Shown: in pieces, positions 19,563 to 42,529 of the stretch
Layout: every line of letters begins with the position of its first letter
How positions within the stretch are numbered: the stretch's first letter is position 1
From: Ignavibacteria bacterium
GTDB lineage: Bacteria > Bacteroidota > Ignavibacteria > Kapaibacteriales > Kapaibacteriaceae
NCBI GenBank assembly: GCA_016191145.1
Contig: JACPPD010000004.1
Span: forward strand, 1 to 64,000
Direction: 5' to 3'
DNA length: 64,000 bases
Notes under the pieces: generated by a model
Database searches by the model: none
Seen by the model: only the letters and a program-made list of their open reading frames with translations
What the model was told of the DNA's origin: nothing
Made by a program: the position numbers and the translations under genes

Positions 19563-22094
19563 CTACCGTACAACCAATAAGCCTAAAAAGATACTTGGTC
19601 TATTCTTTGGCATTAACACAATGGTATACCGGCCAGCGCTTACTCGCGATAGATCTAACCGAATGTTCGTCACCTCAGATGAAAATTCCAGTGACGTAAT
19701 CTCGCTTCCAAGTTGATCAAACAGTTTTACTGTCCCAATAAATAATGGGGTTGAAATCAGCACTTCCTCGAAAGCAGGATTAGGATATAAGGCGATTTGA
19801 GCATCGTGGTTTTCACCCACGGAAGTGCCTGGCTGAACGATTACTTTGAATTTTTCACTGATCTTATCGCCGCAGGTTCCGCTTACACGCACGAAATAAT
19901 CACCGGCATCCAAACCTGAAATACTTGCAATCGTTAGTTTCGACGATGTTTCAAATGGAATTAAAACAGTGTTTCGGTACCATGCATAGTTAAGTGCATT
20001 TCCCTTAGCAACAACAGAAAGCTCCAATCCCTGCCCTTGATAGACCGTTGTGTCGCGTGGCACTGATACAATTTCAGTGTTATCAGCAACTAGCACGTTG
20101 GCCGGATCGCTCGTCTCACTCAGGCCGCAAGCTGCGGTGACAATAACTTGGTACCGTCCCGACGAAGAATATGCAGCTGGCCCAAGGAACAGTACTGGCT
20201 GTGTTTGACCAGGGATAACGTTACCGTCCTTTTGCCAGACATATCTGAGTCCAGTACCTCTTGCCTCCACGCCAAGCTGATAAGAATCGCCAGCACAAAG
20301 TGTTGCCCCAATGGGCGAAGTAACGATGTCCATCCGAGGATCGACGGTAAGGGGCGAAGACATTCGCGATGCATGCGAGCGCGAGGAAACCACACGGAAT
20401 GTAGTTAGGCGATTAATTAACGATGAATCACTAATGGTAACCTGTATAGAATTCCCGTTAGTAAATGCGCTCACCGGGAACCATGTCTCGAGATCGGTTG
20501 ATGCTTCAACACGGTATTTGTCGGTAACATCCATGTCGATTTTCGACCACGCAATGTTAATCGGTTGGTCAATGCAAAGATGTTCGCCTCCCCTGGGCTC
20601 ATATAAATCGAGCAATCCACGCTGATATCTGATCGACAATGCATCGGATGACGGATACTCGCCAACAGCTTCAAGATTTTTATTATCGATGTTTATGAAG
20701 GGTGAGGTTGAAGAACCTACGAAGATCACGCCACCATCGCCGTCAGTAAGCGCTCTCGTGAAATGCTCGTCTTTAGAACCTCCTATTGTCGAGCGCATCG
20801 ATGTGGAATACGCCGATGTAATAGTGATGAAAGGTTCCAGGCCGCCATTCAGAGTGGAACGTGAGCCGGAACCTACAGTTTGTAAATCTTGCGATGTTGT
20901 TGTACCAAAGATTATAAACTGATCGCCCTTAAATGGCACGGCGCCGTCGACGATTTCTCCGCCCTCACCGCCAAGGTATGTTGATGCCAGCAACGTCATC
21001 CCAGTTGCATTGAGCTGGGCAAGGAATGCATCGGAAGGACCTAGCAGATACATTTGCGAGCCGGAAGCGACAGGGAGATCTACTGAAGTTGTTGTGCCAA
21101 TAATCGACAACTCTCCCACAGAATTCAAGGCAATGGATTTACCCTCGTCCTCGCCATTTCCTCCGAAATACGATGCTACAATTACGCGGGCACCGTCGTC
21201 GCTAAAGATGGTAAAGACTGCATCTGTTTCGCCGCCATTATACGTCCAGTCGTACGGTCGTTCCCTTTGCCACCACCAATAAAGCGGATTAACCTTGGGG
21301 TATGTTGGAAAATCCTGAGACCTAGTTGTGCCAGCACAGGCAAGACTGCCTGAATTGTTAATGGCAACGTCGTTGAATACATCGTCTGATGTACCGCCAT
21401 AATAGGTCGAAAATATGACTGTCGAAAGCCCGGGAGTAAGACCAGCTAAAAATGCATCGTATCCGCCGTCGTAGGTTTTATCGTATCCGTTGGTTACAGG
21501 AAAACCGTTAACAGATTTTGTTGAGCCGCAAAAGAACACATTCCCAGCTTCATCGCTTATGATGTCGACTACTTCATCGTCGTTAGTTCCACCAAAATAA
21601 GTACACGCAATCAGTGTAGATAAATCTGAAGTAAATGAAGCCACGAAGCTATCAACGTACCCTGATTTTATAACAGCGAACGCACCAATTGTCGTTGGTA
21701 GATTCACGCTCTCAGTAGTACCGGCAATAACAATTACTCCCGCTGGTGTTATTGTGAGTCCAACAGCTTTATCGTCGCTCGATCCGCCAAGGAATGTAAA
21801 TGCCTTTACTATTTCCAGGTTGGGAGATAAGACTGCAACAAATGCATCTGTGGAACCATTATGTTCGGTATCGTAACCCGAAGCATTGTCCCACACTTCG
21901 TAACCATCTGTCCAACCGCACACCACAACGTCACCATTTAATGCTCGCCCAACACCAGTAATGTGATCGTTGCCTAAAGTGCCCCGCAAAAAGCCCCCCA
22001 CAAAAGGCCCGCCACCCGTACCGGCGAAAGCCGGAAGGGCTGTAAGGCCCAACATTGTTAATGCAATACTGGTTTGTAAGGCAAGCTTCTTCAT
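19563..22094 (-). CDS. Secreted SBBP beta-propeller / Ig-like protein with T9SS tail
   Basis: The 843-residue protein starts with a signal peptide (MKKLALQTSIALTMLGLTALPAFAG). About 450 residues of SBBP-type repeats follow (TYxGGTxDDxxxDI...GNVFFCGST...DAFLAGL). Then come a short PRGGE domain (about 500-590), two Ig-like domains (about 600-750: Cys pairs, YVWQKDG and YAWYRNT) and a C-terminal T9SS sorting domain (IALYPNPAFEEV ... SAGRYTIVL). Such proteins are exported by Sec and then carried over the outer membrane by the T9SS. The ligand is unknown. It lacks the N-terminal domain of its two upstream paralogues. The ATG at 22094 is chosen over the preceding GTG. Confidence 0.9.
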   Translation of the reverse strand: MKKLALQTSIALTMLGLTALPAFAGTGGGPFVGGFLRGTLGNDHITGVGRALNGDVVVCGWTDGYEVWDNASGYDTEHNGSTDAFVAVLSPNLEIVKAFTFLGGSSDDKAVGLTITPAGVIVIAGTTESVNLPTTIGAFAVIKSGYVDSFVASFTSDLSTLIACTYFGGTNDDEVVDIISDEAGNVFFCGSTKSVNGFPVTNGYDKTYDGGYDAFLAGLTPGLSTVIFSTYYGGTSDDVFNDVAINNSGSLACAGTTRSQDFPTYPKVNPLYWWWQRERPYDWTYNGGETDAVFTIFSDDGARVIVASYFGGNGEDEGKSIALNSVGELSIIGTTTSVDLPVASGSQMYLLGPSDAFLAQLNATGMTLLASTYLGGEGGEIVDGAVPFKGDQFIIFGTTTSQDLQTVGSGSRSTLNGGLEPFITITSAYSTSMRSTIGGSKDEHFTRALTDGDGGVIFVGSSTSPFINIDNKNLEAVGEYPSSDALSIRYQRGLLDLYEPRGGEHLCIDQPINIAWSKIDMDVTDKYRVEASTDLETWFPVSAFTNGNSIQVTISDSSLINRLTTFRVVSSRSHASRMSSPLTVDPRMDIVTSPIGATLCAGDSYQLGVEARGTGLRYVWQKDGNVIPGQTQPVLFLGPAAYSSSGRYQVIVTAACGLSETSDPANVLVADNTEIVSVPRDTTVYQGQGLELSVVAKGNALNYAWYRNTVLIPFETSSKLTIASISGLDAGDYFVRVSGTCGDKISEKFKVIVQPGTSVGENHDAQIALYPNPAFEEVLISTPLFIGTVKLFDQLGSEITSLEFSSEVTNIRLDLSRVSAGRYTIVLMPKNRPSIFLGLLVVR

Positions 22095-22202
22095 CACATT
22101 GTAAAGTTAAGTGAAATAATCGTAAGAAGCTGTGATAATTGTCACCATCTGCGTGACGCAAATGTTCCAATTTTAATTAAAAGTTCCAGGTGCCAGGTGC
22201 GG

Positions 22203-33675: not shown

Positions 33676-34220
33676 TATGCAACAGGATTAACATGATCGA
33701 GGAAATACTTGCCAAAGACATTCGAATATCTGAGTTTTAGGGACCCATGTTCAAAGATTCCGGCCGCAATATCGATGTTAAAGAACGGTCTGAGGTCAAT
33801 GTAATCGCGAACAAATGCCCCAAAGGTCGCTCCGTATCCCAAGGTAATCGCTCCGGCTACAGCATACCGTTTTGCTCTGCCGCCGTTATCTCCAATTCTT
33901 AGAATCATGCCAATCGGTATACTCAGTCGTTGAAAATTTACCGAACGATCATCGGGAGTTGGTCCTAGTGCAAGCAGAGGCGGCACGGAAATACCCAGCG
34001 ATCCGGCGCCAAAACGAAGGATGTGTGCATTCACCGAAATACCAAAGGCAATACCTCCATAGCTTTCGAGAGTTGGCCCACTTCCGACAGACGTTACTGT
34101 CGGCCCCAAAAACACTTCGCCATCAACGACCGTTTGAGCTTGAATGTGACGGCAAAACACAATCGTAAACAATGCAACTAACGTAATATAAATGAATAAA
34201 CTGCTGTATCGTTTAGCCAT
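33639..34220 (-). CDS. Small outer-membrane beta-barrel-like protein
   Basis: The predicted 193-residue protein has a signal peptide (MAKRYSSLFIYITLVALFTIVF...IQAQ), alternating-residue beta strands and a C-terminal aromatic (GSTEW). All three fit an outer-membrane barrel of about eight strands. Family not recognised. The ATG at 34220 is chosen because it begins a normal signal peptide; the frame is open to 34427. Its 5' end overlaps the start of mltG by 29 bp (head to head) and its 3' end overlaps the ABC gene by 37 bp (tail to tail). No clear ribosome-binding site is seen. The overlaps lower confidence, but the signal peptide and barrel pattern argue it is real. Confidence 0.6.
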   Translation of the reverse strand: MAKRYSSLFIYITLVALFTIVFCRHIQAQTVVDGEVFLGPTVTSVGSGPTLESYGGIAFGISVNAHILRFGAGSLGISVPPLLALGPTPDDRSVNFQRLSIPIGMILRIGDNGGRAKRYAVAGAITLGYGATFGAFVRDYIDLRPFFNIDIAAGIFEHGSLKLRYSNVFGKYFLDHVNPVAYHGLFIVGSTEW

Positions 34221-35175
34221 GCTTTTCGTTGCTATGATTGTTTTAAGCTGCGGTTTCGTGGTGTATTTGCTTTCATTACGTATCGGCATTTCGGGTAGCA
34301 CAACAGTTTTAATACCTCGTAACTCCCCCATTATTGAAGCTGTGGATAGCATCAATGCAAGGTGTAAACTACCGACTCCGTGGTTTGTTGCAATACTTGC
34401 CCGTGGCGCTGGACGGATATCCGACATGAAGATTAAATCAGGCTGGTATGTATTTACTGCCGAGGATACTCAATTTGATATTCTTAAGGCTCTCTTTACC
34501 GGGAAACGGCGCAAAACGGTATGGGTAACAATTCCCGAAGGGCTCACTTTTCGCGAAATCGCCGGCATTGTTGAAAAAAATGTTGGAACCGACTCGGCCG
34601 ATTTTGTCCAATGGTGCGACAGTTATTCAGTACGCAACAACAAAGAATCAGTCGAGGGTTATCTGATGCCTGACACCTATGAATTTTATTGGAAGGAGGA
34701 TGCATCTGTAATAGGCATCAGGCTGCTCGATAATTGGACAGCAAAAATGGGAACGTTGTCGGCGTCCAGCTCGGATGTCATTCTTGCCTCAATTGTACAA
34801 GCTGAGGCAGCCACTACCACAGAGATGCCTAGAATCGCAGGTGTGTACCGCAACAGAATGAAGGCAGGGATGAAACTTGAGGCTGATCCTACAGTGCAGT
34901 ATGGTATCGGTCAGAAGCGAAGACTGTCATACAATGATTTAGCAAACACAAATCCGTGGAATACCTACCGCGTTGACGGGTTACCTCCAACGCCCATCAA
35001 TAACCCTGGTTATGCGGCACTCAAGGCTGCGATGAACCCCGAGGAACACAACTACCTCTTCTTTGTTTCGAGAGGCGACTCTACACGTGAACACAGGTTT
35101 GCCCGAACGGCCAGTGAGCATGCGCGGAATGTGATGTTGTATCGGAAGCAAAAACGTCTCGGCAAACTCGAATGA
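34192..35175 (+). CDS. mltG: Endolytic murein transglycosylase MltG (YceG family)
   Basis: The 327-residue protein has one N-terminal transmembrane helix (about residues 7-30), a LysM-like region (WVTIPEGLTFREIAGIVE) and the YceG catalytic domain. The catalytic Glu sits in ASIVQAEA. Other motifs are RIAGVYRNRMKAGMKLEADPTVQYGIG, NTYRVDGLPPTPINNPG and NYLFFVSRGD. MltG cuts nascent glycan strands in the periplasm and sets their length. No ribosome-binding site is obvious; the start overlaps the antisense OMP gene. Confidence 0.94.
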   Translation: MNKLLYRLAMLFVAMIVLSCGFVVYLLSLRIGISGSTTVLIPRNSPIIEAVDSINARCKLPTPWFVAILARGAGRISDMKIKSGWYVFTAEDTQFDILKALFTGKRRKTVWVTIPEGLTFREIAGIVEKNVGTDSADFVQWCDSYSVRNNKESVEGYLMPDTYEFYWKEDASVIGIRLLDNWTAKMGTLSASSSDVILASIVQAEAATTTEMPRIAGVYRNRMKAGMKLEADPTVQYGIGQKRRLSYNDLANTNPWNTYRVDGLPPTPINNPGYAALKAAMNPEEHNYLFFVSRGDSTREHRFARTASEHARNVMLYRKQKRLGKLE

Positions 35176-35227: not shown

Positions 35228-36703
35228 TTATTCATTTTCAGTCCATACCCGCGACGTCCATCCCCGCTGATCCCGCGCCTGAAGCTTAAACGTAAACGGT
35301 CTGTTGTTATCCTTTCTCAGAACGAGAAATTCTTCTAACCAAGTAACGGTGGGGGCCTCGCTTGGATCTGCTGCATGTCTGTTGCCATACTGCTTACGCG
35401 GTGGCTGGGCGTTGCCTTCTACGACTTCGAGAAATGGTCTGTCGCGGTTAGGATCTCCATAGAACTTTACGATAACTTTCTTTCGGTCCCCCTGTCCGAC
35501 GCTGCGAACATCGGTGATTTCCGGACCGGGAAACGATCGCACACGGATTGACGTGGAAGGACCGGCACGCTGTCCGTCGACGAGTCTTTCCAGAATGTAT
35601 ACACTGCCTGTATCGTTTGTTGGCGCTGTAAAACGCATTGTGCCCGAGCGCACGCTAACGATTTCTCTATCCCCGCTTCGGAGTATTGCCTTTACATCTT
35701 CAAGGTCGGGAAGCTTGGGATCGATGACGTACTCAATTCCTGGATAAACAACGTCTGGTACATCTATCGTCGGAAGTGGAATGCTAGAAACAAGGAAGCT
35801 GGCTTCTGCTGTCTGACCGTCTCGCCGCTTAGCGAAAACCGAAACGGTGTATGATCCGGTTCGTGGTGCGTGACCGCGAATAACAACGGATCGCTGAGCA
35901 GTGTCGAACGACTTGTCGACGTCTACGCCAGCCATACTCACTCGCACTACGGGCATTCCGATCAAATCCCTGCGGATATCTGCTCCACCAATGCTTATCC
36001 TGTTCGCCCATTCACGCGTTGGGAGTGTGATGATCCTCTCTCGGGCCACGTCAATCCAGAATGTACCAAGGTCCGATGAAGAACGCAATAAATCGGTAAT
36101 CCTGCCTGTATCGTAGATCGTCTGTGTGGCAATTAATCTCGAAGGACCTTCGTTTTCAATCGATGTGGTGAGAAGGAACTGCGCCGATCCGTTGAGGCGC
36201 AGCCCGGGTGGTATCCTGTCGGCGTCGGCACTGTTGGCGCCAACGGTCCCTGGTGGAGCAGCCGATCCATTGATGGTGACTCTGAACGTCCTCGGAGAAG
36301 GAACAGAAACGTCGGGCCTCCAACGAAACATTACAGCCTGACGCTCAGGCTGCCGCACCAACTCGAATAAGCGTGTTGTTGTTTCGCCGGGTTCAATCGT
36401 CATAACCTGACCTGTTTCCACTTCTTCGATACGGGCGGTAATACGCAGATCGGAAATCTCTCCTGTATATCGGATGACGTTGATGCTGTCCAACGTGCGT
36501 AACCGAATGCCCCCTACAGAATCGCGGATTAAACGCAACTCCATACGCACACGCTCGGGCTGTAAGTCCAGGCGAAGGTTTGGCAGTGAGGATACAACGT
36601 TTTCGCCGTTGTTAGACCAATCTGGAAGTAGTAGGACTAACGCAACAATGTATAAAACGAAGTATATCTCTACGCGTCGGCGTGGTTGGCGTCGATCAAT
36701 CAT
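35228..36703 (-). CDS. Candidate GldM-like T9SS motor subunit (divergent)
   Basis: The 491-residue protein has a short Arg-rich N-terminus (MIDRRQPRRR), one transmembrane helix (about 11-28) and a large all-beta periplasmic part with several Ig-like segments (for example PLPTIDVPDVVYPGIEYVI and FPGPEITDVRSVG). GldM of the type IX secretion motor has the same size (about 510), a basic N-terminus, one helix and four periplasmic beta domains. The gene overlaps the preceding two-helix gene by 8 bp, the gldL-gldM order. Overall sequence identity to known GldM is not obvious to me, so the call rests on architecture and context. An ExbD/TolR-like role would be the wider alternative. It is followed by a strong terminator. 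Confidence 0.5.
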   Translation of the reverse strand: MIDRRQPRRRVEIYFVLYIVALVLLLPDWSNNGENVVSSLPNLRLDLQPERVRMELRLIRDSVGGIRLRTLDSINVIRYTGEISDLRITARIEEVETGQVMTIEPGETTTRLFELVRQPERQAVMFRWRPDVSVPSPRTFRVTINGSAAPPGTVGANSADADRIPPGLRLNGSAQFLLTTSIENEGPSRLIATQTIYDTGRITDLLRSSSDLGTFWIDVARERIITLPTREWANRISIGGADIRRDLIGMPVVRVSMAGVDVDKSFDTAQRSVVIRGHAPRTGSYTVSVFAKRRDGQTAEASFLVSSIPLPTIDVPDVVYPGIEYVIDPKLPDLEDVKAILRSGDREIVSVRSGTMRFTAPTNDTGSVYILERLVDGQRAGPSTSIRVRSFPGPEITDVRSVGQGDRKKVIVKFYGDPNRDRPFLEVVEGNAQPPRKQYGNRHAADPSEAPTVTWLEEFLVLRKDNNRPFTFKLQARDQRGWTSRVWTENE

Positions 36704-37493
36704 TGCTCTCAAGGATCCGACGACTTAACAATCGTTCCAATTCAATGCGAACGAGTCGTTCAACTTCTTCGTGCTCAATGATGTGCATACTCTTGCTCAA
36801 TGCATCTACGGCTTCGGCAAAACGATTTAGCGCAACGGATGTGGACTGCATCGACGTCATCAATTCTGGATTTGGCGCAACAGCATTTACTGCAGCATTA
36901 ACACTCTCACGCATTGCATGTACCATACCGTCCTGCCGTTCCACAAGATCAGTCAGCGATTCGGCAATTGATTCCAATTGCACAGCCATCGCCGCATAAT
37001 CGCGTCCGATTTCGCCAATCTCTCTCAGCAGTTCTTCCGTTGCAACCGATCCATCGGGTGTCTGCCCCTTACCATCGGGCTCTTCAGGTGGTGTGAAATA
37101 CATCACCAGAAACAGCAGCAACAACAGAAGGGATTCGATGATGATGCCGGCAACAACAACCGATGGAGCTTTAATGACTCCGGTACGGTTCAGACCTACA
37201 ACGAGGAGAAGAAGTGCAGCGCCAGCATATACAAATGCGTTGATGACAGAATAGAAGAATCGGTTGACGACTTCTTCCATCCATAACTTTGTGCCGGAAA
37301 GTATGCCAAGTGGATGCAGGACTACGACGTCACGGCGTGTTAATCGTATAAGCTCCTGCTCCTTCGTGCAAATACGCCAGCATACGGCAAGAGCTTCTAA
37401 TGCACCAAGTTGCCGTTCATATCTAAGTTCACGATAAATTTCGCGTAAGAGCGAGCGACCGTTAACACTCGCAAACGACTCGAGTTGCGTCAT
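36696..37493 (-). CDS. Candidate GldL-like T9SS motor subunit (divergent)
   Basis: The 265-residue protein has an N-terminal cytoplasmic region of about 80 residues, two transmembrane helices (about 84-101 and 111-133) and a C-terminal coiled-coil-like cytoplasmic region. The second helix holds Glu120 in AGIIIESLLLLL, followed by PPEEPD. GldL also has a membrane Glu in its second helix (GLVTEALIF), followed by an acidic FEP-type end, where it serves the proton path. The N-terminal extension is unusual for GldL. The ATG at 37493 is preferred over a TTG at 37526. It is co-transcribed with the GldM-like gene. The window encodes many T9SS cargos, which supports the idea; the call is inference. 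Confidence 0.5.
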   Translation of the reverse strand: MTQLESFASVNGRSLLREIYRELRYERQLGALEALAVCWRICTKEQELIRLTRRDVVVLHPLGILSGTKLWMEEVVNRFFYSVINAFVYAGAALLLLVVGLNRTGVIKAPSVVVAGIIIESLLLLLLFLVMYFTPPEEPDGKGQTPDGSVATEELLREIGEIGRDYAAMAVQLESIAESLTDLVERQDGMVHAMRESVNAAVNAVAPNPELMTSMQSTSVALNRFAEAVDALSKSMHIIEHEEVERLVRIELERLLSRRILESND

Positions 37494-37576: not shown

Positions 37577-40500
37577 ATGTTTAGACTTCTACTTTCTGCC
37601 ATCTTTGTTCTATGCACATGTATCAGCTACGGCTCAACCCTGCCTAAAAAGTACAACGTCCCGGCAGCTTTCGAAGCCAACGTCGGCCAGGCCTTGTACA
37701 CGGACGGAACCCCTGTTGAACACATTGATGCACTGTTATCGGCTGGCTCTGTAAGAGCGTTCATTCACAACAAGGGCATGTTTCTGGCCCTGTCGGCAGT
37801 CCGGAAGGTACACCCCGATTCGTCAGCCTCCGTCGACATCTTTCGTACCGACATTGAACTCATTGCTTCGAATCCCTTTGCGCGCCTCGAGATTTTGGAA
37901 GGGGGCGATGGTTTCGTGCGGTTTATCGGCATGGGCGATGGGAAGGCAGGACGCATAGCCCAGCGATATCGTACCATTATTTATAAGAATGTGTACCGAT
38001 ACATCGACATGCGATTAACTGCATCGGATCGGGGACCTAAGATTGATTTCATTGTGCACCCGGGTGGCAACCCTTCCGACATTGCAATCCGGTACAGCGG
38101 CACCGAGTCTATGTCGGTTACAACAGCAGGTGAATTGATTGCGGCAACGCCATTGGGATCGCTGATAGAATCAGCCCCTATATCATGGACGGAAAGTCGC
38201 AATGGGTACAGGACAACCTTGAAATCCTCTTTCAGGTTGTCGGGCTCAACAATCAGATTTACTATTGATGATTATAATCCAAATGAGCTTTTAGTTATCG
38301 ACCCACAGCGCGTGTGGGCAACTTATTACGGAGGCAACAGTAGCTTCTCAGAACCGCTCGTTTCTATGGATACGTTCGGAAATGTTTTCATGGCAGGCTC
38401 TACGTCGGCAACCGATCTGCCTAAGAGCACCGGAGTCTTCCAAAGAAATTACCGCGGTAATCAGGATGCTTATGTTGTAAAATTCAACGATAAGGGAGTG
38501 TTCCAGTGGCACACATATATGGGTGGGACGGGTGCAGAGCTTTTGTATGATGCTACAACAAACGACGCTGGCGAGTTGTGGATATGCGGACGCGGTGATT
38601 CACCCAATACACCACTGTTCGCTCTTGAAACAAGCGGCAGCGGACCGATAGGGTATCTGCAGGATGATACACTGACGTGGACGTCGCACGGTTGGGTGAT
38701 GAGGGTAAAGGCTGATGGCTCGTGGGGTGATAGTTGGCTGCTTGACAGCGATGGATACGATGCTGTAACGGGAATCGATTACAGCAATAACAGGCTTGCC
38801 CTGATAGGCACTACTCGAAGCCGCCGGAACGTAAACAACGTTGCAGGGAATCCATACAAGCGGGATTCTTCAAATAATTACAATAACAGAGATGCCTTTA
38901 TCAGCAAGCTGATCCTACGAACAGGTACCACAGATAGATGGGAAAGTGATTGGTTTACCTACTATGGCGGAAAATCCGATGATGATGGCATTAAGGTTTC
39001 GGTTGATATTAATGGAAATGTCGTTGCCGTTGGCGAAACTATGAGTAATAATATCCCGGTATCCGACGCTTCCACGTTCCGCGGAATCGTTGATTCGTGG
39101 GTCATTAAATTTACCACACCTACCAAATACACGCCGGCACGTGCATGGGCTTCGTATTTCGGAGGTACCGAACTCGACAAAGTAACTAACATTACTATCG
39201 ATAATCTCGGATTTCCGGTAATAGTGGGTTACACGGCGAGCGTTGATTTCCCTGTGTCGAATGCGCTTAAGGGCACACTCACAACATCATATGATGGATA
39301 CATCCGCAAGCTGAACGGCGCGAACGGAGCTGCTGTGTTTTCTACCTATTTCGGCGGTAACAAGACCGAAAAACTGACCGGCGTGATGACTGACCGAAAT
39401 AATAGAATTTGGGTATGCGGGGAAATTGTGAGTACAACAAATATGCCCGTTTCTTTAAATGCGTTTCAGGCAGCACCAAATCTCGACCCCGGAGGTTGGC
39501 CATTAACCGATGGCTACTTTGCGCAGTTGTCTGCCGATGGCGCTAATGTTCTTTATGGTTCGTACTATGGAGCCCCGCCACAGGAGACCTTGCCACCGTT
39601 CCCTCCACCAGATCCGCCAACAGATCCTCCTCCGCCAAATACTGATTGGGGCTCCGATAACATCGCCGACATTTGGATTGACAACAATGCCTACGTCATT
39701 CTGGGTTCGTATGTCAATTCGATCCGTATGTCAACAACGCCAGGCGCGTATCAGGATTCATCGTCCCTGCGAAAAGACACGATGCAATCTTCGAACTTCC
39801 TATCGTACTTTACCAACTGCACCGATTCAATAATAAAAATTATTATTAACGGCACTAATGCTCTATGTGCATCCGACTCTCGCCAATTAATTGCGCCGGC
39901 TGGGTTTGCAAAATATCTGTGGTCAACGGGCGATACCACGCGCCAGATTGTTGTAACAGATTCGGGTAGATACATTGTTACCAGCACAACGCTGGACGGA
40001 TGCCGGTATCGAGATACCGTGTTCATGACGAAGAACCCGCAGCCAAGTGTTAGCGCCGGCGCCGACACTTCTGGATGCGTGAACACACTGATACAGCTCA
40101 CCGCAACTCCTTTGGGTGGAACGCCCCCTTACAAATACAAATGGAAGCGTATAGAAGCAGGACCCGGATACATCAACGACGACACACTGCAAAGTCCGGG
40201 AGTAAATCCTAATACAACGTCGCGATACATTGTAACACTCACGGATTCGGTTGGATGTACCGCAAAGGACACGGTGTTGGTTAATATCATTAATCCTAAA
40301 CCAACATTCACCCCCGACACCGTAAGGTTCGGTCAAATGGATGCTTGTGAATCAGTAAAGGACACGTTCTTGTTCGTGAAAAATCCGATGACGTATCCGA
40401 TAACAATAACGGAATTCAGCAGTAGTTGGACAATTATAAACTTAGTTACCTCGGTCTCCCCACCGCCCGTCCTTGCTCCCGGTGATTCAATCAAACTCAC

Positions 40501-42529
40501 CGTTCGCATTTCGCCAATTACCGCAGGGTTGTCTGCCGGTACATTCACTATCAAGGGATCGCCTTGCAACTGGACACTTGCCGTTCCCTTTTCGGTTACG
40601 AAGCAGACATTGCTTGCTTCGGTGTCTCCCAGCGTTATCGACTTTGGTTCATGGCCCGATTGTGAATCAATCAAACGCGATTCGACATTAACAATATTTA
40701 ATGGTTCGCCCGATCCTATGATTCTTCAGCAGCCAATTGTTGGTCTGCCTTTCAGTGCAACTGCCTCGATAACAACTATCCAACCCGGCGATTCAGCCAT
40801 CATCGATGTTTCGTATGATCCCACTACAACGGGACAGTTCACCGACGTAGTGCGTATTGCTTACACGGCAGGGACTTGCACTGGTGAATTTAAGATTGAT
40901 GTTAGAGGTGCGGAGTATCCTGTTAGCGCAACGCTAACTCCAAACACCATTGATTTCGGATCGCTGGAGGGCTGCCAAGAGGGCAAGGACTCAGCTATTG
41001 TTATCAGTAACACGAGTCAGGTTCCGATAACAGTAAATCTTCAGCCAACTGCCGAAGTTACATTTGTACCATCGGGGATGCAGACCATAAATGCGAATGA
41101 ATCCGTTACTATTCTGGTTACAATTCGTCCTGCCTCACCCGGTATTTTCTCAGCCACCATTCCTATTACGTTCACACCTTGTAACGGGCAATTCCCGCTT
41201 ACTCTTACAGCGGAAAAGAATGGCATTGCATTTTCGACGCCAGACAATGTTGAATTTGGAGAACTGAACTCGTGTACCGATCCGCCAACCTCAACGAAGT
41301 CCTATTCAATTTCGTTTGAAGGAACAGGTTCGAGCTTAGTAACTTCTGTTACATATGGAGCTACTCTCTCCACTACGCTTGGAGCAGGCACAGTATTGCA
41401 GTCTGGAGTTCCTCAATCATTTGATGTAACATGGAGTCCTGGTGTTGATGGAGTGCTTGACGACAGCATTGTAGTTGTCTTCAGTCCCTGCGCCGTTAGA
41501 CGCGTGATTCGGGTAGGAGGCGTTAGAACAACACCAGCTCTTCGAGCTACAACTCCGGTAATAAATTCTGTTAACGTCAGCAATGGCCTCATCGGAACAC
41601 TTGAATTCGAAAACATCGGAACAGATACAATTCGCGTTAACGTCTTATCTCTTTCTCCGGACATCGTTGTTAGCAATCAGAATCCCGACCAGCTTACCGA
41701 TATCCTGCCAGGAGAATTCGTTTCCGTAGACTATGCGCTTAACTGTAGGGGGCGAATTGATTTTGCCGACAGCATTGTTGCCAGCACAACGGGAACGTGC
41801 AAACTTGATGCAACATCTGTTTTAACAGGAAACTGTTTACCAGCAACGCAAGGAACAGCTTCCGTAGTAATCGATACTGCAGCCGTCAACATCGGCACAA
41901 GATTCAAGCTTCCAATGCGGTTGGTTTCTTCAAGCGGATTAAACGCTGTAGGCTTGTATAATTGGCGTGCAGAGGTAACATACGATCCCTTAGTGGTGGT
42001 CGGCATGGGTTCAACGCCAGACTGTTATGTGAGTGGACAAGACCTTCCATGCACAATAACAGTAAGCGGTACACGCACCGACACTGTTGGCACACTGTAT
42101 GAATTCGATTTCACGGCTGTGCTTGGCCCGCGAGAAGTTGGCAAGGTTGAACTGAGCTCGTTTGTTTGGGTCGACGACACTACCATTGCATCGCAGACGC
42201 AAAACGGATATGTGCGTTTAGCAGACATTTGCTATGCAGGCGGACCACGCTTGCTGACGGCAAAGGCAAGCGCCTTTTCCATCAACGTATATCCAAACCC
42301 TGCGAGCGATGTATTTAATATTAAGATTCTCGGTATGGGGCAGACACCCGGATCTTGGTCGATGTACAATTACATAGGCTCGCTTCTCGACGCAGGTCCT
42401 CTTGTTGCAGACGTTAATGGTGATGTTTTCGAGACCATAACCGTTACGAAGTATTCGTCGGGCACATACTTTCTTACGATTGATGCGCGAGGCAGCATTT
42501 TTAGAACACCACTCATCATTTCGCGATAA
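37577..42529 (+). CDS. Very large T9SS-secreted SBBP / immunoglobulin-like protein
   Basis: The 1,650-residue protein has a signal peptide (MFRLLLSAIFVLCTCISYG), then a DUF7948-like domain (AFEANVGQALYTDG ... IYKNVYRYIDMRL). SBBP repeats cover about 255-700 (WATYYGGNS, TYMGGTGAEL, TYYGGKSDDDGIKV, SYFGGTELDKVTNI, TYFGGNKTEKLTGV). A Pro-rich linker lies near 675-690. PKD-like segments (YLWSTGDTT, YKWKRIE) follow at about 760-910. Repeated ASH/choice-of-anchor-like domains (DFGSWPDCESIK, DFGSLEGCQEGK, EFGELNSCTDPP) cover about 910-1410. A cohesin-like domain precedes the T9SS tail (INVYPNPASDVFN ... SSGTYFLTID). It is likely released or attached at the cell surface; the ligand is unknown. The OMP gene follows 9 bp later. 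Confidence 0.9.
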   Translation: MFRLLLSAIFVLCTCISYGSTLPKKYNVPAAFEANVGQALYTDGTPVEHIDALLSAGSVRAFIHNKGMFLALSAVRKVHPDSSASVDIFRTDIELIASNPFARLEILEGGDGFVRFIGMGDGKAGRIAQRYRTIIYKNVYRYIDMRLTASDRGPKIDFIVHPGGNPSDIAIRYSGTESMSVTTAGELIAATPLGSLIESAPISWTESRNGYRTTLKSSFRLSGSTIRFTIDDYNPNELLVIDPQRVWATYYGGNSSFSEPLVSMDTFGNVFMAGSTSATDLPKSTGVFQRNYRGNQDAYVVKFNDKGVFQWHTYMGGTGAELLYDATTNDAGELWICGRGDSPNTPLFALETSGSGPIGYLQDDTLTWTSHGWVMRVKADGSWGDSWLLDSDGYDAVTGIDYSNNRLALIGTTRSRRNVNNVAGNPYKRDSSNNYNNRDAFISKLILRTGTTDRWESDWFTYYGGKSDDDGIKVSVDINGNVVAVGETMSNNIPVSDASTFRGIVDSWVIKFTTPTKYTPARAWASYFGGTELDKVTNITIDNLGFPVIVGYTASVDFPVSNALKGTLTTSYDGYIRKLNGANGAAVFSTYFGGNKTEKLTGVMTDRNNRIWVCGEIVSTTNMPVSLNAFQAAPNLDPGGWPLTDGYFAQLSADGANVLYGSYYGAPPQETLPPFPPPDPPTDPPPPNTDWGSDNIADIWIDNNAYVILGSYVNSIRMSTTPGAYQDSSSLRKDTMQSSNFLSYFTNCTDSIIKIIINGTNALCASDSRQLIAPAGFAKYLWSTGDTTRQIVVTDSGRYIVTSTTLDGCRYRDTVFMTKNPQPSVSAGADTSGCVNTLIQLTATPLGGTPPYKYKWKRIEAGPGYINDDTLQSPGVNPNTTSRYIVTLTDSVGCTAKDTVLVNIINPKPTFTPDTVRFGQMDACESVKDTFLFVKNPMTYPITITEFSSSWTIINLVTSVSPPPVLAPGDSIKLTVRISPITAGLSAGTFTIKGSPCNWTLAVPFSVTKQTLLASVSPSVIDFGSWPDCESIKRDSTLTIFNGSPDPMILQQPIVGLPFSATASITTIQPGDSAIIDVSYDPTTTGQFTDVVRIAYTAGTCTGEFKIDVRGAEYPVSATLTPNTIDFGSLEGCQEGKDSAIVISNTSQVPITVNLQPTAEVTFVPSGMQTINANESVTILVTIRPASPGIFSATIPITFTPCNGQFPLTLTAEKNGIAFSTPDNVEFGELNSCTDPPTSTKSYSISFEGTGSSLVTSVTYGATLSTTLGAGTVLQSGVPQSFDVTWSPGVDGVLDDSIVVVFSPCAVRRVIRVGGVRTTPALRATTPVINSVNVSNGLIGTLEFENIGTDTIRVNVLSLSPDIVVSNQNPDQLTDILPGEFVSVDYALNCRGRIDFADSIVASTTGTCKLDATSVLTGNCLPATQGTASVVIDTAAVNIGTRFKLPMRLVSSSGLNAVGLYNWRAEVTYDPLVVVGMGSTPDCYVSGQDLPCTITVSGTRTDTVGTLYEFDFTAVLGPREVGKVELSSFVWVDDTTIASQTQNGYVRLADICYAGGPRLLTAKASAFSINVYPNPASDVFNIKILGMGQTPGSWSMYNYIGSLLDAGPLVADVNGDVFETITVTKYSSGTYFLTIDARGSIFRTPLIISR

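Follow-up and report, generated by a model that had tools for sequence, protein, structure and literature searches.

Two published findings put in question what powers type IX secretion in lineages such as the Ignavibacteria. A survey of Melioribacter and Ignavibacterium lists, in the excerpt cited here, PorV, SprA, and Plug and no other protein of the type IX secretion system (T9SS) (PMC11705866). A widely used T9SS detection model, which includes GldK-N profiles, was reported, likewise in the cited excerpt, to find no T9SS outside the Bacteroidetes in a 2013 genome set (PMC4793230). We analyzed a 64,000-nucleotide stretch of DNA from an Ignavibacteria bacterium of the order Kapaibacteriales, here called the window, in which two adjacent genes, A and B, had been read from the sequence alone as a diverged GldL/GldM-type motor pair for type IX secretion. 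We put the probability that A and B form a highly diverged, proton-driven T9SS motor of the GldL/GldM type, working without a recognizable PorK/N ring, at about 70%, the function being one that we infer from homology.

Architecture of the A/B gene pair

The reading frames of A and B share 8 bp, as the sequence-only reading had described for two coupled genes (Table 1). It had likewise been right to give A two helices, with Glu120 in the second and PPEEPD after it (the sequence there reads FTPPEEPD), and about 80 additional N-terminal residues relative to GldL. The AF2 model of A has two membrane helices followed by a long helical tail. B begins with MIDRRQPRRR and continues into one hydrophobic helix, and its AF2 model (mean pLDDT, 86.4) is mostly beta apart from that helix, in agreement with the basic start, single helix, and beta part attributed to it. 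The helix region of B is strongly conserved: residue 8 is Arg or Lys in 55 of 56 sequences, with His in the remaining one, and Tyr14, Phe15, and Tyr18 are each present in 56/56. Scanned against Pfam and NCBIfam, A and B returned sub-threshold matches only; the sequence-only reading had judged the pair too diverged for easy annotation.

TABLE 1 Coordinates of the A/B pair, its divergent neighbor, and two paralogs (window positions unless a locus is given)
Feature	Position	Strand	Remarks
Gene A, GldL-like, 265 aa	36696..37493	-	ATG at 37493, stop ends at 36696
Gene B, GldM-like, 491 aa	35228..36703	-	ATG at 36703, stop ends at 35228
Layout of A: ~80-residue N-terminal extension, two membrane helices, then long helices	36696..37493	-	Long helices probably cytoplasmic
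Membrane helix 1 of A, residues 83-101	37191..37247	-	Hydrophobic stretch; Y89-x-G91-A92 matches YGxGAA of GldL helix 1
Membrane helix 2 of A, residues 112-130	37104..37160	-	Hydrophobic stretch
Glu120 codon of A, inside helix 2	37134..37136	-	Aligned with GldL Glu49
Single membrane helix of B, residues 11-29	36617..36673	-	Basic residues before it
Beta domain of B, residues ~44-184	36152..36574	-	Where GldM has helical D1; AF2 model
B residues 225-397, aligned with GldM D2-D3	35513..36031	-	hhalign; ends in shared (F/I)PxP stretch
C-terminal beta domain of B, residues 398-491	35231..35512	-	AF2 model; probable GldM D4 position, by position only
SBBP/Ig-like protein, 1650 aa, divergent neighbor of A	37577..42529	+	C-terminal T9SS sorting domain
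Paralog C, 447 aa	L051 7879-9222, own genome C15		A-type hairpin, about four hydrophobic stretches; beside porU-like gene
Paralog D, 325 aa	L054 8894-9871, own genome C19		A-type hairpin, about four hydrophobic stretches

Relationship of A to GldL

HMM-HMM comparison, the check that the sequence-only reading had proposed for both proteins, placed A and B above their respective controls. For A, an alignment of 64 rows matched 20 canonical GldL sequences in hhalign with a probability of 91.4% (E 9e-7, score 51.9). Reversed GldL scored 22.0, the best of 28 decoy families drawn from the loci scored 20.3, and 60 local column shuffles peaked at 31.6, none being as high as the real score. The alignment places Glu120 of A on Glu49 in helix 2 of GldL. 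Glu120, Tyr89, Gly91, and Ala92 are each invariant in A (64/64), and the matching residues in the 20 GldL sequences are Glu in 20, Tyr in 17, Gly in 20, and Ala in 20. According to the cited part of PMC8986121, the E49A change in Flavobacterium johnsoniae GldL abolishes SprB secretion. Homology of A to GldL in the membrane hairpin, with the proton-linked Glu kept, is supported by these computations.

The features that A shares with GldL and PorL are the two membrane helices, a YxGAA-type helix 1, the invariant Glu in helix 2, long helices thereafter, and, in most relatives, a gene position directly before a GldM-like gene. The differences are the N-terminal extension, the absence of a match to the GldL model TIGR03513, and the absence of Lys27 and His30, and the alignment covers no more than the hairpin and the beginning of what comes after it. 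Lys27 and His30 are important in GldL, where they occur in 20/20 and 18/20 of the sequences, respectively. Neither is kept in A, in which position 102 is Arg in 38 sequences, Asn in 15, Tyr in 7, and another residue in 4; position 103, near the places of the two GldL residues, is Arg in 60/64.

Other comparisons gave less. TIGR03513 had no match in the genome at E <= 1e-3, and it was not listed for A at a limit of E 10. A smaller comparison made earlier, with 23 A rows and partial GldM, put A-GldL at 65.6% and B-GldM at 25.6%, a pooled hairpin profile reached GldL at only 46%, and A against the single divergent GldL sequence of genome G112 gave only 4.5%. A Foldseek search with A listed PorLM/GldLM chains at ranks 7, 8, 14, 17, and 22, every one at E > 2, and VIA did not separate PorL/GldL chains from unrelated helix hairpins. 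A sequence search of the PDB with the A profile found GldL chain 7sax_C at 1.1e-4, with the best stretch in a coiled-coil region; we discounted this match as evidence because designed coils and chemoreceptors score equally well or better.

Relationship of B to GldM

Residues 225 to 397 of B aligned with domains D2-D3 of GldM at a probability of 23.5% and a score of 38.0. The controls were lower, at 22.4 for the reversed profile and 24.1 for the best of 60 shuffles (0/60 as good); the best decoy scored 24.7, setting aside the B1 family of other orders, which scored 36.7 and which we read as a relative of B. We regard the D2-D3 match, a result of sequence comparison, as probably specific but weak. 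No significant alignment was obtained between the N-terminal helix of B and that of GldM (0.6%), and the GldM model TIGR03517 had no match to B. PorM (6ey5) matched B at E 1.0. In two structure searches with B, PorM was absent from the best 50 matches of each, and strings of Ig domains filled both.

B resembles GldM and PorM in its basic N terminus, its one membrane helix, its similar length, and its D2-D3-like beta region. It differs in lacking a TIGR03517 match, in a conserved Glu12 at the helix start, and in having beta structure in place of the helical D1, as the AF2 model indicates; in several genomes of other orders, moreover, the partner is short and the gene after it encodes another protein that is apparently exported. 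Glu12 lies at the start of the sole membrane helix and is Glu in 55/56 sequences and Asp in one, and ten full-length GldM starts that were compared have no acidic residue at its place. The sequence-only reading had credited GldM with four beta domains, which was mistaken, since D1 of GldM is helical (PMC5790014, in the excerpt cited). In G112, the alignment of a divergent, 380-aa GldM to canonical GldM begins only at about D2, and D1 may therefore be open to replacement. At the locus of this GldM, L213 (G112:C1:3885000-3900000), divergent gldL and gldM genes cluster with a GldK-like gene, and there are matches to the GldL and GldK models. Of the proposed GldL/GldM identity, then, the A-GldL part stands on a controlled match and the B-GldM part on a weak match above controls, and the absence of a helical D1 from B speaks against it.

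Distribution and gene neighborhoods

A match to A was found at E <= 1e-3 in 119/119 genomes of the order, including the genome studied here, and A and B are therefore not chance reading frames. At E <= 1e-30 the count is 110/119, and the remaining nine may be paralogs. We collected 75 related loci from named genomes, mostly metagenome-assembled genomes of Candidatus Kapaibacterium, Ignavibacteria, or Bacteroidetes, and examined 64 of them, leaving out 11 cut or duplicate-looking matches. A is complete in 63 of the 64 and runs off the contig in the other (L106). B follows A directly in 57 of the 63 loci, complete in 55 and cut by the contig end in 2; the available DNA of the other six (L099, L100, L101, L105, L114, and L116) holds no B near A. 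For those six, B may be at some other place in the genome; a parallel is genome G105, where A and B lie on different contigs. The coupling of the two genes that had been proposed is thus the usual arrangement, with unlinked genes in some relatives. The A alignment of 64 rows includes the window's own protein, and the eight of the 63 loci without a complete B were omitted from the B rows.

In a sample of 148 genomes from the phylum, matches were confined to the class, with 16 genomes for the A profile and 12 for the B profile. Both were found in 11/11 order genomes of the sample and in G124, which lies outside the order. Among the matches listed in a search of open-licence titles and abstracts, no GldL/GldM-type pair was described for Kapaibacterium or Ignavibacteria relatives.

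The 1650-aa divergent neighbor of A matches the sorting-domain model PF18962 at 32.8 bits (cut-off 27) and TIGR04183 at 22.0, slightly below the cut-off of 23, and is likely a T9SS cargo. Its cluster adjoins A on the opposite strand in 14/79 loci. A second likely cargo, at 19566-22097, is above the TIGR04183 cut-off; the sequence-only reading had placed several T9SS cargos in the window. No core T9SS genes lie beside A/B in the window. The gene at 34192-35175, presumably mltG-like, faces B; related genes come next after B on the opposite strand in 20 loci, and a similar protein was noted by eye near B in G124.

T9SS components in the genome and the phylum

The genome (completeness, 99.96%) encodes SprA at C3:160134-166616, at 872 bits with neighbors in frame (cut-off 200), and a C25-peptidase PorU-like protein (PF01364, E 2.5e-55) that scores 205 bits with the PorU model NF033707, below its cut-off of 420. 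It has no match to the GldL, GldM, GldN, or GldK models; TIGR03525, TIGR03523, and PF03781 are without a match, and a strongly diverged GldN could escape them. Of the T9SS genes that the sequence-only reading had proposed to look for in the same genome, SprA was found, along with a PorU-like protein, and GldK and GldN were undetected. Among observations that would count against the assignment, it had named a canonical gldKLMN cluster elsewhere together with matches of the pair to another family such as ExbB/D. Neither was found, there being no detectable canonical gldK, gldL, gldM, or gldN in this genome and no MotA/ExbB or ExbD family listed for A or B at a limit of E 10. A/B resembles a gldKLMN cluster in that the motor pair is encoded in tandem, and differs in that no GldK or GldN is found beside it or detectable in the genome, which has no PF03781 match.

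Across the phylum sample, SprA was detected in 117/148 genomes, including 36/36 of the class. Model matches numbered 39 for GldL, 39 for GldM, 36 for GldN, and 36 for GldK above cut-off; inside the class there was none except a weak GldL match in G009 (E 2.4e-4). General FGE proteins in 21 class genomes were picked up by the GldK model at scores under its cut-off. The FGE-fold model PF03781 detects true GldK strongly (in G130, for example, at E 3e-50) and had no match in 12/36 class genomes, including the one studied here. The hairpin profile matched 20/36 class genomes (in one case at E 7e-4), leaving 16/36 SprA-positive class genomes without an A-like match. Cross-tabulation over the whole sample showed that a GldL-model match and an A-like match are both missing from 60/117 SprA-positive genomes. 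The motor of many T9SS escapes these GldL and A profiles.

Other orders of the class

In six of seven genomes from other orders, A is accompanied by B1, which is short and has a YFxxY helix, and by B2, a second apparently exported protein. Genome G055 has an unsplit B of 446 aa that links B1 (99.2%) and B (75.5%), and it also carries a second, split set (L162). The A-like proteins of these orders reached GldL on their own at only 3.1%.

In four of the six (L215, L218, L219, and L220), two apparently exported proteins, X (~510 aa) and Y (~460 aa), are encoded after A, B1, and B2, and three of these four loci carry another X-Y pair. A Pfam scan of one X and one Y gave no match. It is possible that X and Y are a ring substitute in these orders; in the window, no genes of the X/Y type follow B.

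Paralogs and alternative explanations

The genome encodes two further proteins with an A-type hairpin, C and D. Paralog D lies, by eye, beside a P-loop ATPase-like gene. Paralog C is homologous to A (profile-profile probability, 96.8%) and keeps the helix-2 Glu in 9/9 sequences. A porU-like gene follows C in 10/11 sampled genomes of the order, and in the eleventh the contig ends just past C; in G124 C has no porU-like neighbor. The porU-like neighbor ties the hairpin family to the T9SS, and it also makes C the main rival to A/B. C could be the T9SS motor of the order, with A/B a related motor for surface movement, outer-membrane upkeep, or a similar task, and the lack of core T9SS genes beside A/B is in keeping with that arrangement. 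However, no GldM-like open reading frame of at least 170 aa lies beside C in this genome, the C profile misses GldL (0.4%) while the A profile reaches it, and the divergent neighbor of A is itself a likely cargo, and we consider this explanation unlikely. The role of A/B in type IX secretion is a predicted one, for which the porU-linked C is a competitor.

Two-helix hairpins are common, structure searches did not discriminate among them, and the A-like proteins of other orders miss GldL, all of which would fit A and B being membrane and periplasmic proteins unrelated to GldL and GldM, with a chance similarity between hairpins. What makes this very improbable is the outcome of the controls (reversed, decoy, and local shuffle), together with the alignment of an invariant Glu and the separate weak match of the partner B to GldM. 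A motor of the ExbB/ExbD, TolQ/TolR, or MotA/MotB type deserves hardly any credence: these motors have a general 5:2 logic in common (PMC9389320, in the part cited) and B carries a conserved Glu where its helix begins, but Pfam/NCBIfam scans of the pair gave no MotA_ExbB or ExbD at a limit of E 10 (the filters of HMMER remove most matches weaker than about 0.1), there are two membrane helices in A and a long beta string in B, and A matches GldL well above the controls.

A proposed ring-free motor

Under the preferred reading, A and B as a GldL/GldM-type motor, the inner membrane would contain a ring of five A subunits around two B helices. A would be the proton-conducting ring and B the axle and periplasmic arm, with proton passage by Glu120 of A turning or bending the B dimer. 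The beta string of B would span the periplasm and hand the work to the outer-membrane machinery of the T9SS (SprA). Since no GldK, GldN, or FGE-fold protein is detectable, B would act on another partner or on the translocon directly. A broader proposal, which we offer tentatively and would not yet bet on, is that a whole class-level branch of the Bacteroidota dispenses with the PorK/N ring in its T9SS, which would be driven by the branch's own GldL-type motors: A/B, A plus a split B, and C with its porU link.

In the current model GldM drives a GldK/N ring, and the missing ring is a challenge to it. If the broader proposal is true, the PorK/N ring is not universal in T9SS energy transfer, and force reaches SprA in another way. 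A/B is a concrete candidate motor for such lineages, with Glu120 as a single testable residue.
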